This document shows, piece by piece, positions 6,258 to 52,983 of a stretch of DNA of 64,000 bases; the stretch's first letter is position 1; every line of letters begins with the position of its first letter. Origin of the DNA: Turneriella parva DSM 21527. Its GTDB lineage: Bacteria; Spirochaetota; Leptospiria; Turneriellales; Turneriellaceae. Both the position numbers and the translations under genes were made by a program. A model generated the notes under the pieces. The model did not search any database. It saw only the letters and a list, made by a program, of their open reading frames with translations, and was not told the DNA's origin. Location of the stretch: contig NC_018020.1 in assembly GCF_000266885.1 (NCBI RefSeq), forward strand, positions 1,674,001 through 1,738,000. Reading direction: 5' to 3'.

Positions 6258-6303
6258 AATGCTGTATATTACATGAAGTATGATTCATGTAATATACAGC
6301 ATT
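6258..6303. repeat. Perfect 20-bp inverted repeat upstream of sbtA
   Basis: Arms 6258-6277 and 6284-6303 are exact reverse complements separated by GTATGA. A T6 run lies at 6312-6317, just before the proposed GTG start at 6318. It could be a terminator for upstream transcription, an operator, or a leader hairpin controlling the transporter. It makes the alternative ATG at 6273, inside the left arm, unlikely. Confidence 0.8.
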
Positions 6304-6317
6304 TTACGGGGTTTTTT

Positions 6318-7286
6318 GTGGATGTTCTAGCGGCGCTGCTGCAGAACCTGCAGACCCCGATGATTCTTGCCTTCTTTCTGGGCATCGTCGCCACCGCGAT
6401 TCGCAGTGACCTGAAGTTTTCTGACGGCATGTACGCAGGGCTCACGATCTATCTGCTTTTTGCGATTGGGCTGAAGGGCGGGTATAAGCTCAGCCAAACG
6501 ACATTCGCTGACCTTTGGGCGCCGGCTCTGGCCGCGGTGGGCCTTTGCATTGCGATACCCATAATTGCTTTCTGGCTGCTCAGAAAATTCGGTAAGTTCT
6601 CTGCGATAAACGCCGCAGCAATCGCCGCGCACTATGGTTCTGTCTCGGCGGTCACTTTCGGTGAGGCGCAGGCATTTCTTGATCTGCAGAAGATTGCATA
6701 CGAAGGTTATATGCCCGGTCTATTGGCAATCATGGAGATTCCCGCGATTCTGATCGCGTTGTTCTTGGTAAAAACACAGGCAGGTTCTCGCGTGACTTTT
6801 CGCACAGTGCTGCACGACCTGTTTGCCGGTAAAGGGACAGTCTTGCTTCTGGGTGGTCTGATCATCGGTGCAGTTTCAGGTAAGAAGGGTTTTGAGCAGT
6901 ATGCACCGCTCTTTGATGTTCCGTTTCGCGGCGTGTTGATACTCTTTCTGCTCGCAGTGGGCATCACCACCGGCAAGCGCCTCAATGACCTGCGCCATGC
7001 CGGGCTGTTTTTGGTTATCTTCGCTATTCTGTTTCCCGTCTGCTGCGCAGCCTTTGCGCTGCCGCTCGCGAAGTGGGCAGGGCTGTCGCTCGGCGGTGCT
7101 ATGGTGTTTGCCTCTCTTGCCGCGAGTGCCTCGTATATCGCCGCACCGACGGCGATACGCATTGCATTGCCCGAAGCGAGCCCGGCCTATTATCTGACGG
7201 CGGCGCTGGTGATTACATTTCCCTTCAACATTACAATTGGTCTGCCGCTCTATCTTGCGGGTGCACAGGCCCTATTCGGAGCTTAA
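6318..7286 (+). CDS. SbtA-type sodium-dependent bicarbonate transporter family protein
   Basis: A ~322-residue integral membrane protein with about ten hydrophobic segments, typical of the DUF897/SbtA family that in cyanobacteria imports bicarbonate with sodium. Family-typical stretches include FFLGIVATAIRSDLKFSD near the N-terminus, IGLKGG, AAHYGSVSAVTFG at the middle of the first half, and an inverted second half (PFRGVLILFLL, SYIAAPTAIR). A GTG start at 6318 is preferred because the upstream ATG lies in a perfect hairpin. No SbtB (PII-like) partner is next to it. The substrate in a non-photosynthetic bacterium is an inference. Confidence 0.8.
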   Translation: MDVLAALLQNLQTPMILAFFLGIVATAIRSDLKFSDGMYAGLTIYLLFAIGLKGGYKLSQTTFADLWAPALAAVGLCIAIPIIAFWLLRKFGKFSAINAAAIAAHYGSVSAVTFGEAQAFLDLQKIAYEGYMPGLLAIMEIPAILIALFLVKTQAGSRVTFRTVLHDLFAGKGTVLLLGGLIIGAVSGKKGFEQYAPLFDVPFRGVLILFLLAVGITTGKRLNDLRHAGLFLVIFAILFPVCCAAFALPLAKWAGLSLGGAMVFASLAASASYIAAPTAIRIALPEASPAYYLTAALVITFPFNITIGLPLYLAGAQALFGA

Positions 7287-7289
7287 AGC

Positions 7290-7452
7290 GCTAACAGGTT
7301 CCTGAAAAAGGAACCTGTTAGCAGGCGTCCGGAACCGCGAAGGCGAAAAGCAGCAAAGTCGCTGGCTTGCAAGCGACGACGCGCTTTAGCAGTCATTTGC
7401 GGACGCAAATGACGAGGCTTTTCGCTTATGCGGAAGTTTTTCCGGAGCCTGC
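7290..7452 (-). repeat. Structured repeat R1, copy A (multi-hairpin element)
   Basis: A ~160-bp element related to 51955-52113. Read on the minus strand it has terminal inverted repeats (GCAGGCTCCGGAA and its partner at 7321-7334), an outer stem GCTTTTCGC/GCGAAAAGC, an inner hairpin at 7392-7413 (GTCATTTGCG/CGCAAATGAC), the conserved block 7377-7394, a second hairpin 7358-7377, and a final hairpin 7290-7322 (14-bp perfect stem). The same order and spacing occur in copy B, with base changes on both sides of the stems. It fills the space between sbtA and the FG-GAP gene. Confidence 0.8.
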
Positions 7453-7540
7453 GAGAGATCGGCGATGAACAAGCATAGCTGCGCACCTTGTTAAACTCAA
7501 TTTACAAAACAGAGCATCGAATAGCTTGTGCTGAACGCGC

Positions 7541-23691: not shown

Positions 23692-25209
23692 ATGCACGTA
23701 TTGCGGTTCACAACTCAGAAAAAGCGCGACATTCTTTGTTTTAGTATGGCTCTTGCTGCTTTTGTTTCTCTTAGCGCCTGCAAAACCTCTGAATCTGAAG
23801 GGAATGTTTCTCAAGCAACTTCTGGTTCGCAAACGAATGTCTCAGCCACCGCTAGTTGGGCGCAAACTGTAAGTGCCGGAGCAGCGAATTCTCGTTTCGA
23901 TTCGGTGGCAGTCGATAGCAGTGGCAATATTTACGTAAGTGGGTTTCAGGCCGGTACCGGCACGTATACATATGGCGCACAGAGCACGGCGGTTACAGCT
24001 GGTACAAATAATATTGCATTGGTGAAATACAGCGCTGCAGGCATTGCGCAATGGGCCCGCACTGTCAGTGCGGGATCAAGTGATTCGGTTTTCGAGAGCG
24101 TGACAGTCGATAGCAGTGGAAATATATACGCAGCTGGCAGCCAGCGAAATACGGGTACCTTTACTTACGGTAGTATTAATGCTGCTGCTACGCATACGTC
24201 ATTTAACCCGTTGTTGGTTAAGTATGATACGAATGGTAATGCGCTTTGGGTTAGGACGGTAAGCGCTGGTTCAAATGTTGCGCGATTTCATTCTGTCGCC
24301 ACTGATAGCTCAGCAAATATCTACGCCGCGGGTCGTCAAACAGGCACGGGGGCGTTCACTTACAGTGGCCAGAGTATCTCCGGTGCGAGCGTCGGGGTCA
24401 ATGCGACGCTCGTCAAGTACGATAGCTCTGGTGCTGCGCTTTGGGCTCAGACAGTTGCTTCGGGCGCGAGCTCTTCATATTTTTCCGGGATTGCAATAGA
24501 TGCATCGAGCAATGTCTATGCAGTTGGCCTACAGTCTGGAGCTGGCACGTATACGTACGGTACTCAAAGTGCAACCGGAACGCACACGAGTAGCAACTGC
24601 GTCATCGTAAAGTATAATAGTTCAGGTGTGGCTCAATGGGCAAGAACTGTTAGTGCAGGCTCAAATATATCGCAATTTAATTCAGTTGCCGTAGACAGCT
24701 CAGGCAATACGTATGCCGTAGGCGCAATTTATGGAACCGGTACGTTTACTTTTGGTAGTCAAAGCGTTAATGGTGTTTCTACTAACGCTAACTTGTTAAT
24801 AGTGAAGTATGATTCTTCAGGTAATGCTCTTTGGGCGCGTTCGGTCGGGGCTGGTTCAAGCGATTCAGCATTTTACGGCGTCACCATCGACAGCGCCGGA
24901 AATATTCACGCAGCTGGCATGCAGAGGGGCACTGGCACGTTTACGTATGGCAATCAGAATATCTCGTCGCCTCATACGGGGACTAACGCGCTCTTGCTCA
25001 AGTATAGTCCCACTGGGACTGTACTTTCTGCAACCACGGTTAATGCTGGCGCAAATGAATCGTCTTTTCAGGCACTTGCCGCAGATACTTCAGGGCATGT
25101 CTATGCGGCCGGGGCTCAGAACGGAAACACGATGTTTACTTTTGGCTCTGTGAACTCCACGGCAACTAATGCAGGCGGTTCGAATTCATTGTTAATAAAG
25201 TATCAATAA
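23692..25209 (+). CDS. SBBP-repeat beta-propeller lipoprotein
   Basis: About 505 residues. With the ATG at 23692 the signal peptide ends in FVSLSAC (Cys30), a lipoprotein site; an ATG at 23653 would add 13 residues. The remainder is ~8 repeats of ~56 residues with WAQTVSAGSxxSxFxSVAVDSSGNIYVAG, then TGTFTYGxQ and LLVKYDSSGxALW, the SBBP (seven-bladed propeller) pattern. Probably a surface binding or adhesive protein. The codon use looks AT-richer than in neighbouring genes. Confidence 0.85.
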   Translation: MHVLRFTTQKKRDILCFSMALAAFVSLSACKTSESEGNVSQATSGSQTNVSATASWAQTVSAGAANSRFDSVAVDSSGNIYVSGFQAGTGTYTYGAQSTAVTAGTNNIALVKYSAAGIAQWARTVSAGSSDSVFESVTVDSSGNIYAAGSQRNTGTFTYGSINAAATHTSFNPLLVKYDTNGNALWVRTVSAGSNVARFHSVATDSSANIYAAGRQTGTGAFTYSGQSISGASVGVNATLVKYDSSGAALWAQTVASGASSSYFSGIAIDASSNVYAVGLQSGAGTYTYGTQSATGTHTSSNCVIVKYNSSGVAQWARTVSAGSNISQFNSVAVDSSGNTYAVGAIYGTGTFTFGSQSVNGVSTNANLLIVKYDSSGNALWARSVGAGSSDSAFYGVTIDSAGNIHAAGMQRGTGTFTYGNQNISSPHTGTNALLLKYSPTGTVLSATTVNAGANESSFQALAADTSGHVYAAGAQNGNTMFTFGSVNSTATNAGGSNSLLIKYQ

Positions 25210-51080: not shown

Positions 51081-51434
51081 CTAAGCCTCTTGCCACAACT
51101 CAATCTTATTGCCTTCAGGGTCATACACCCACGCAAACTTGCCATAAGACTCATCCATGCGCTTCTCGTCGATGCGCACGTTTTTCGCTGTCAGCTCTGC
51201 TAAGAACGCGTCGAGGTCTTTGACGCGAAAGTTGATCATGGTCTGCTGCGTTGCCGGGTAATAGTCAGAGTTTTTCTTGAATGCAGAGAAGACGAGCATG
51301 CCACCGCCGGCTTGCCACGGCGTGTGATCGGCGGCCGGGGTGATGCCAAAGGTGTTTTGGTACCAGGCGTTCAGCGCGTCGGGGTCTTCGGCGCGAAAGA
51401 AGATGCCGCCGATGCCGAGAATCTGCGCACTCAT
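51081..51434 (-). CDS. VOC family protein
   Basis: A 117-residue VOC protein (start ATG 51434). Pattern: GIGGIFFRAEDPDALNAWYQNTFGI, INFRVKDLDAFLAEL, and the last strand KFAWVYDPEGNKIELWQ with a metal-binding Glu. The start overlaps the stop of the upstream lipoprotein as ATGA, so the two are translationally coupled. Substrate unknown. Confidence 0.88.
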   Translation of the reverse strand: MSAQILGIGGIFFRAEDPDALNAWYQNTFGITPAADHTPWQAGGGMLVFSAFKKNSDYYPATQQTMINFRVKDLDAFLAELTAKNVRIDEKRMDESYGKFAWVYDPEGNKIELWQEA

Positions 51435-51907
51435 ATGCCACCGCAGGCTTTGCGTTGCGCGAATTCCACGCACTTTTGCCTGAGGCCGGGCAGGCGAATT
51501 TCATAATCTGCTTCGCACATGATCGCCGCGCCTTCACCTTCGCAGCTTTCGGCGACGAGTTTTTTGGCGGCGTTCAGAGTTTTCTGCATGCGCTGCGTTT
51601 CTTCTGACACGACAATCTTCGGTGCGTCGGGTTTGCATTCCATTAAATAGACGCGCGGGTCGGCGTTGCGGCAGATTTCGAGTGCGCGACCGAGCGCGCC
51701 GTCTTTCGCGTTCTTTGCGGCGCGGGCGCGCAGCTCTTTCGCGGGGCTCGTTGCGGGTATTCCCGCGGCGCTGCCGAGTGAAAAGATCAGCATGGTATTG
51801 TCGTCGGCAAAATGGCTCTCACGAATTTTCGAAGTTGCAAACTTTGTATCGGTCGAGCTGCATGAGAAGAGCAGGGTAGAAGTCAAAAAGAGTAACAAGT
51901 ATCGCAT
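51431..51907 (-). CDS. Small lipoprotein of unknown function
   Basis: A 158-residue lipoprotein (STLLFSC, Cys16). The mature part is helical and charged and carries six cysteines in its second half (ICRNADPR, MECKP, ESCEGEG, IMCEAD, QKCVEF, KACGG), likely three disulfides in the periplasm. No family is recognised. Upstream of the VOC gene in a two-gene operon; divergent from pirin with the R1 repeat between. Confidence 0.65.
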   Translation of the reverse strand: MRYLLLFLTSTLLFSCSSTDTKFATSKIRESHFADDNTMLIFSLGSAAGIPATSPAKELRARAAKNAKDGALGRALEICRNADPRVYLMECKPDAPKIVVSEETQRMQKTLNAAKKLVAESCEGEGAAIMCEADYEIRLPGLRQKCVEFAQRKACGGI

Positions 51908-51954: not shown

Positions 51955-52113
51955 GCAAGCGTCGGATTAATTTCCGAAAAATCGAAAAGCCTCGTCGTTT
52001 ACTTGCGCAAACGACTGCTAAAGCGCGTCGCCGCCTGGCGAGCAGGCGGCTTAGCTGCTTTCCGATTTTTCGGATCCGACGCCTGCCGTCAGTTTCCCCC
52101 TGGGAAACTGTTG
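51955..52113 (+). repeat. Structured repeat R1, copy B (multi-hairpin element)
   Basis: Shares with copy A (7290-7452) the blocks CGAAAAGCCTCGTC (51983-51996) and the 18-bp block at 52013-52030, in the same order. Stems here: ends GCAAGCGTCGGA/TCCGACGCCTGC (132 bp apart, same as copy A), TCCGAAAAATC/GATTTTTCGGA, GTCGTTT/AAACGAC, GCCGCCTG/CAGGCGGC, and a following CAGTTTCCC/GGGAAACTG 3 nt behind the terminal repeat. Located between divergent genes, just upstream of pirin. Confidence 0.8.
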
Positions 52114-52146: not shown

Positions 52147-52983
52147 GTGAAAAGCGCGCGAAAAATACATCACATCCTGAAGGGCCAAGAGACTTCTGAC
52201 GGTGCCGGCGTGAAGCTGCGCCGCTACATTGGCACACGCGACCTCATGGCGCACGACCCGTTTCTGATGCTCGACGCGTTTTACAGCGACGACCCCGATT
52301 CATACCTTGCGGGTTTTCCGAATCACCCGCACCGCGGCTTCGAGACGGTGACGTACCTCATTCAGGGCAAAATGGAGCATAACGATTCGCGTGGCAACCG
52401 TGGGCTACTCGAACCCGGCGGCGCGCAGTTCATGCGTGCGGGCTCAGGCATCATTCATTCTGAAATGCCGCGGCAAGAAAACGGCATGATGTGGGGCTAC
52501 CAGCTGTGGGTGAATCTGCCCGGCAGTCTCAAGATGTCTGAGCCGCACTACCAAGATCTTCAAAAGGGGGATATACCCCTTGTGCAAACCGGCGCGTATG
52601 AGGCGAAAATTCTCTCTGGTACCCTTGAAGGCGTCACGGGTGGCGCAAAAGGTTTTTACGAAATTGACTACTTCGACATTGAAGTCAAAGACGGACAGAG
52701 CGCAGAGATACCAGTCGCTGCCGACAAGTCCGCATTCGTGATCGTCGTCGCAGGCACAGGCGATGTTGCGGGCGAGAAAGTGGTGCGCGGCGATTTGCCG
52801 ATTCTGACGAGCGGCGACAGCATTGAGCTCAAAGGCGGCGAAAACTTTCGCGTGATCGTCGTCGCCGGTGCACCGATCAAAGAACCCGTCGCACGCTATG
52901 GGCCATTCGTCATGAACACCGCCGAAGAGATTCAGCAGGCGTTCGAAGACTACCAGGCGGGTAAGTTTTCGAAGGCGAGCTAG
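52147..52983 (+). CDS. Pirin family protein
   Basis: A 278-residue bicupin. The N-terminal domain has FPNHPHRGFETVTYL (metal His pair), SGIIHSEMP (His and Glu) and the C-terminal cupin has FVIVVAGTG. Pirins bind iron and some oxidise flavonoids; the role here is unknown. Starts with GTG at 52147. The 3' end overlaps the end of the NHL gene by 4 nt (convergent stops sharing CTAG). Confidence 0.88.
   Translation: MKSARKIHHILKGQETSDGAGVKLRRYIGTRDLMAHDPFLMLDAFYSDDPDSYLAGFPNHPHRGFETVTYLIQGKMEHNDSRGNRGLLEPGGAQFMRAGSGIIHSEMPRQENGMMWGYQLWVNLPGSLKMSEPHYQDLQKGDIPLVQTGAYEAKILSGTLEGVTGGAKGFYEIDYFDIEVKDGQSAEIPVAADKSAFVIVVAGTGDVAGEKVVRGDLPILTSGDSIELKGGENFRVIVVAGAPIKEPVARYGPFVMNTAEEIQQAFEDYQAGKFSKAS

Follow-up and report, generated by a model that had tools for sequence, protein, structure and literature searches.

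Short, protein-less mobile palindromes of the Turneriella family: a repeat family not described before

Bacterial MITEs are described as intergenic elements that end in TA, have inverted repeats and give rise to long hairpin transcripts (PMC2229807, PMC10969869). By comparison with them, the R1 repeat of Turneriella parva appears to fit the MITE as a kind. With the Correia/NEMIS, RUP and ERIC/IRU elements it shares its shortness, the lack of genes, terminal inverted repeats, TA-containing ends and an intergenic location, target duplications and long-hairpin transcripts being also listed among the common traits. Unlike these MITEs, the Turneriella units hold a three-way-junction core with compensatory change, the same core is found inside different ends, and no enzyme was found. 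The REP/BIME elements and their RAYT partners are similar in being dispersed intergenic palindromes, many of them at gene 3' ends, in solo and composite forms, but the Turneriella units are much larger (about 130-210 bp), show no GTAG/CGTC tag, lie away from the Y1 genes of the genome and, in relatives, are flanked by target duplications of 8-9 bp. IS5-family MITEs use a 4-bp target, YTAR. R1 likewise abuts YTAR, with identical 4-mers on the left and right of four copies, but no IS5-type transposase with CAGG..CCTG ends was found, and the other subfamilies have duplications of 8-9 bp. Finally, the CIR repeats of Caulobacter are built of two hairpin arms that are linked and include a methylation site; like R1, they are intergenic and have a conserved fold that exposes a conserved motif (PMC2229807). 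In the Turneriella core, by contrast, a variable outer stem closes a three-way junction.

Copies A and B and the distribution of the family

The window analysed here is a stretch of 64,000 nucleotides of T. parva DSM 21527 (contig NC_018020.1). It contains two copies of R1, A and B, whose parts are listed in the table. Their positions and order are those of the original prediction, which had also correctly given a length of 132 bp between the terminal repeats (in both copies this counts from the first of them through GCCTGC) and two conserved blocks, CGAAAAGCCTCGTC (14 nt) and GACTGCTAAAGCGCGTCG (18 nt); every stem pair that it quoted is there. Copy A (163 bp) and copy B (159 bp) show about 80% column identity across the aligned block. 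Their predicted folds reach -83.2 kcal/mol (z -8.9) and -79.9 kcal/mol (z -8.6), respectively, and in each case none of 200 dinucleotide shuffles was as low.

Table. Parts of the two R1 copies, in positions of the window
Feature	Position	Strand	Details
Copy A, whole element	7290..7452	-	unit 1 plus 3' hairpin unit
Copy A, unit 1	7321..7452	-	132 bp; outer stem P1 enclosing the three-way-junction core
Copy A, core	7340..7428	-	match to covariance model R1, 56.5 bits
Copy A, J1/2	7414..7416	-	unpaired junction CTC; near-invariant across 94 cores
Copy A, hairpin P2	7392..7413	-	GTCATTTGC/GCAAATGAC
Copy A, junction	7383..7391	-	TGCTAAAGC; J2/3 and start of P3; near-invariant
Copy A, hairpin P3	7352..7385	-	long (extended) form
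Copy A, 3' hairpin unit P4	7290..7320	-	CAGGTTCC..GGAACCTG; YTAR motif on each side (CTAA at 7318-7321, TTAG at 7291-7294)
Copy B, whole element	51955..52113	+	
Copy B, unit 1	51955..52086	+	132 bp
Copy B, core	51979..52067	+	model match in the window ends at 52044 (39.1 bits); ortholog L155 aligns full-length
Copy B, junction	51991..51993	+	CTC
Copy B, hairpin P2	51994..52015	+	GTCGTTT/AAACGAC
Copy B, junction	52016..52024	+	TGCTAAAGC
Copy B, hairpin P3	52022..52055	+	
Copy B, 3' hairpin P4	52087..52113	+	CAGTTTCCC/GGGAAACTG

Copy A follows an Sbt_1 bicarbonate-transporter gene (6273-7286, +), beginning 3 bp past its stop codon, and is itself followed by an FG-GAP repeat gene. In genome G001 (L230), a P-II-like gene directly follows Sbt_1 and is replaced in T. 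parva by copy A and the FG-GAP gene (window 6273-7540). Because G001 has this P-II gene, and no R1, behind the Sbt gene, it does not provide a clean empty site for copy A. Copy B is located between two divergent genes, an ORF (51431-51907, -) and a pirin gene (52147-52983, +). The same insertion is present in the near relative G003 (L155), where it differs only at non-paired positions.

The original prediction had counted two copies of R1. Both are real in the window, but the genome as a whole contains about 50: the core covariance model gave 50 matches in the 4.41-Mb T. parva genome at E<1e-3, and BLAST with copy A gave 54, including about ten solo 3' hairpins. The model was built from ten short-P3 copies, chosen because MAFFT alignments misplaced the P3 arm; since copies were collected by their junction motif, those without it are under-counted. 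This covariance-model search, which had been proposed with the prediction, was extended to 100 genomes in order of kinship and yielded 81 matches in seven relatives of the same family, six of the same genus (2-26 matches each) and one of another genus (6 matches), with none in the 87 genomes outside the family. An exact-pattern scan of 84,980 species genomes gave 30 matches, 27 of them within Turneriella's family; the other three, in Marinobacterium, Pokkaliibacter and Nodosilinea, were attributed to chance, as these sequences do not fold into the core. Viral contigs contained no match to the core pattern.

The statement that R1 is not a recognised family also held: Rfam searches at the gathering cut-off and at E<=1 returned no family, the window having no match and nine loci giving only a mir-23 match (E 0.58) that was dismissed as chance. 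No such repeat is reported in the T. parva genome paper (PMC3746428) or was retrieved by a text search for Turneriella and repeat. R1 belongs to a family of short mobile palindromes that encode no protein, have not been described before and are found only in the Turneriella family. Other arrangements of its parts were also seen in T. parva. The P4 palindrome CAGGTTCC..GGAACCTG, flanked by YTAR, occurs alone as a 25-33 bp repeat at L026, L032, L033, L035-L039 and L041, and at L069 (G000:C1:3438492-3448292) four cores are crowded into 9.8 kb, and a pair of these, separated by 80 bp, is nested within one large palindrome.

Structure of the branched core and the level at which it folds

Each unit is close to a complete palindrome with the conserved branched core at its centre. 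The core has a constant plan: within an outer stem of nearly any sequence follow GC, the junction CTC, hairpin P2, the junction TGCTAA, hairpin P3 and GC. Many copies share no sequence in their outer stems, and GCCTCG..CTGCTAAAGCG..CTGC stands between complementary arms in all of them. P3 exists in a short and an extended form, and P2 may hold an inserted hairpin; the P2 loops of three otherwise unlike copies (L022, L024, L028) contain one identical insert, the hairpin GCGGTTTC..GAAACCGC.

The covariation of the stems, predicted from two copies, was confirmed in larger alignments. With ten copies, 96.0% of the cells were paired and 58 double-sided changes were counted versus a single one-sided change, a result that no shuffle equalled. 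In the alignment of 94 cores, which was fitted to the core model and is hence biased toward it, 94.8% of the pair cells were paired, double-sided cells numbered 504 versus 143±11.5 in shuffles, and covariation amounted to 0.563 versus 0.163 after shuffling and at most 0.104 in slid controls. An absence of further copies, or stems decaying independently in them, had been named as evidence against the prediction; what was found was about 50 copies and massive covariation, with compensatory change in both P1 and P2.

The best conserved part of the core is not paired. The information content per column was 1.84 bits for the unpaired CTC and TGCTAA, compared with 0.68 for P1 and 0.91 for P2, a conservation of the junctions that is in part a selection effect of the search, since the copies were found through conservation of the core. 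The conserved junction letters are a probable recognition surface for a protein that would bind the folded core, as suggested by the fact that the unpaired letters are conserved while the stems drift freely.

The types of base pairs bear on whether the fold is that of an RNA or of DNA. P1 and P2 together contained 1,811 Watson-Crick cells, against 19 with G·T and 48 with A·C, and after clustering of the copies at 80% identity 19 G·T versus 42 A·C events remained. A tRNA control in the same loci gave 181 Watson-Crick pairs, 9 G·T and no A·C. G·T was thus rarer than A·C, which is opposite to what is seen in tRNAs and makes selection on a top-strand RNA unlikely. The A·C excess weakly favours the other strand, wobble pairs being rare on either strand. 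Wobble pairs, nearly lacking, do not outnumber A·C mismatches, and this speaks against a conventional strand-specific RNA element; an RNA element was one of the classes put forward in the original prediction. Apparently, the same fold is kept at the level of DNA, not RNA, while nearly all paired letters change.

The rarity of wobble pairs indicates either a fold whose importance lies in the DNA itself or arm-templated repair, and the data do not separate these two. In the first case, the arms would stay Watson-Crick because the relevant fold is a DNA cruciform or single-strand hairpin, possibly formed in replication or transposition; in the second, repair might rewrite one arm from its partner. 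We considered the possibility that there is no selection on the fold at all, quasi-palindrome (hairpin-templated) repair keeping the arms complementary and the core reflecting shared ancestry only. This would account for stems that are nearly all Watson-Crick, for the joint change of both sides and for the near absence of single-sided intermediates. Yet the best conserved letters are the unpaired ones of the junctions, where such repair does not act, and asymmetric internal loops persist among the copies. Furthermore, at the orthologous loci L065 and L171 the core has survived between flanks that are about 71% identical, with P1 wholly replaced (AAACCCGCTGG/CCGCGGGTTT to AAGGATATGG/CCATATCCTT). 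We therefore consider repair as the sole explanation unlikely.

Folded single-strand hairpins with conserved unpaired bases are also a feature of integron attC sites, and GCTAAC..GTTAGC of P4 loosely resembles the end boxes of attC. Yet the copies are dispersed singly and form no cassette arrays, and their centre is conserved while the ends vary between subfamilies, which is the reverse of attC. Folded-DNA recombination sites of this type are accordingly a very improbable identity for R1.

Sequence data seldom reveal selection that acts on the folded shape of DNA. With more than 90 natural variants, which combine strong compensatory change, almost no wobble pairs, conserved junctions and both fresh and inherited copies, the family is well suited to distinguishing structural selection on DNA from selection on RNA and from mutation templated by hairpins.

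Ends, mobility and candidate enzymes

Evidence of movement was clearest in two relatives. G004 contains nine copies that are 96-99% identical and lie in unrelated flanks; its units of about 157-159 bp have 8-bp target duplications (CAGCAACC, CTATCCAG and, with one mismatch, TTGAGAAT/TTGAGATT). G005 contains a second family, with ends GGGTGCGGGCGCG, units of 126-207 bp, 9-bp duplications that are exact at three copies (GGGGTCGAG, AATCAAATG, TTATATATT) and have one mismatch at three others, as well as a G004-type unit (L200) with the 8-bp duplication GCAACCGT. Two copies of a G005 derivative without the core also have target duplications; such core-less derivatives have moved, so the ends suffice and the core is inessential for transposition.

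The ends of R1 are of another kind. They read CAGG..CCTG and abut YTAR, whereas the units of the relatives have GGG..CCC and 8-9 bp duplications; one core is therefore found inside elements with at least two kinds of ends. In R1, YTAR adjoins the left end in 9/21, the boundary of unit 1 with P4 in 16/21 and the right end in 15/20. At L012 the unit sits at the apex of a palindrome, AGAATGAGTGT-TTAG..TTAA-ACACTCATTCT. Comparison of four R1 copies of G003 with the orthologous T. parva sites revealed one cleanly vacant site (L151; GTGGTTAATATTATTC versus GTGGTTAG..CTAGGATTATTC); at the other three, the whole unit was missing, a core-deleted remnant was left, or only a P4-like hairpin was present.

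The family thus displays the features of MITEs, namely short non-coding units, terminal inverted repeats, target-site duplications and presence at many unrelated sites, the duplications of R1 being limited to four exact YTAR pairs. The classes proposed originally were an RNA element, a MITE-like unit and a REP-like unit; the second is favoured, because of the target-site duplications, the vacant orthologous sites and the recent amplification in relatives. The MITE-like nature of the units is demonstrated in G004 and G005 and well supported for R1. Our preferred interpretation, to which we assign a probability of roughly 0.6, is that R1 is a subfamily of a non-autonomous, protein-less MITE-like element, confined to the Turneriella family and organized around a conserved folded-DNA core. 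Transposases supplied in trans would recognise the ends of the units and move them.

How unrelated mobile ends acquired one common core is a question raised by these observations. The core may be an independent folded-DNA signal, read by a lineage-specific protein, adopted by several unrelated mobile ends and selected in Turneriellaceae, a proposal that we make tentatively. If it is true, a DNA fold, and not a gene or the sequence of the ends, would be the conserved part of several mobile elements.

A search with the Y1_Tnp, IS1595, IS630 and DDE_Tnp_1 profiles yielded no partner with matching ends, the relatives being available as draft assemblies. IS1595 was rejected because its profile is absent from G004 and G005. 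This type (PF12762) has eleven matches in the T. parva genome, at sites that include G000:C1:542500-573204, 2738210-2748425 and 3683089-3757332, and none in G002-G006. The IS630 profile had no match, and DDE_Tnp_1 was represented by a single T. parva element with different ends. Partial matches to the ends in G004 and G005 corresponded only to solo ends or core-less units, not to an autonomous partner.

The T. parva genome has three Y1_Tnp (IS200-like, RAYT-like) genes (G000:C1:4295927-4296250, 24872-25195 and 1284493-1284816; L050-L052). Together with the hairpin ends beside a conserved YTAR, their presence would agree with a REP/BIME-like element that a Y1 (HUH) transposase moves in single-stranded form, with YTA(R) as the cleavage tetranucleotide. 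Yet each of these genes lies between near-perfect palindromes of its own, with GTTTAAAC or GAATTAATTC at their centre, and not between R1 ends; as the three genes are flanked by these other palindromes, a REP/RAYT relationship is not supported. In addition, HUH enzymes do not generate target duplications such as the 8-9 bp ones of the G004 and G005 units. We consider this mode of movement quite improbable.

Gene context and inherited copies

Some copies have been held in place across species. Besides L065/L171, the pair L076/L115, between tRNA genes, shows a compensatory change in P2, and L055/L156 shows growth of P3. Cores lie beside tRNA genes at L076, L084, L085 and L104 (His/Leu, Gln, Cys and Arg, respectively), that of L076 being between two of them.

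Gaps between convergent genes hold 26 of the 50 T. parva copies, compared with 11 such gaps among the 62 of the window (p about 4e-8) and with 27% expected by intergenic length (p about 2e-4), and copies are often found just past a stop codon. We considered therefore that R1 might be a host-useful RNA, the transcript of the palindrome at mRNA 3' ends serving as a bidirectional terminator, insulator or stability hairpin. This would be consistent with the location of these copies and with the long retention of some, and transcription of both strands in convergent pairs would account for the lack of G-U pairs. However, copy B and the young copies of G004 and G005 lie in divergent or upstream gaps, R1-type copies are without a U-tract, and ordinary U-tract hairpins adjoin some copies (L023, L029). 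Terminator and promoter scans of the copies gave results near chance level, those for terminators being little above it. The junction letters are asymmetric, yet copies between tandem genes show no bias in orientation (10 versus 9). The young G004 and G005 copies occur mostly in divergent or upstream gaps and R1-type copies mostly downstream of genes; placement tracks the type of end and not the core, which argues against a single host role such as termination. A role as RNA at mRNA 3' ends is thus rather unlikely.

Near the young copies of G004 and G005 (L134-L148, L176-L180), a GTCAA motif (reverse -35 box) is often seen no more than about 60 bp from one end, a position that would fit insertion of these units just upstream of promoters.
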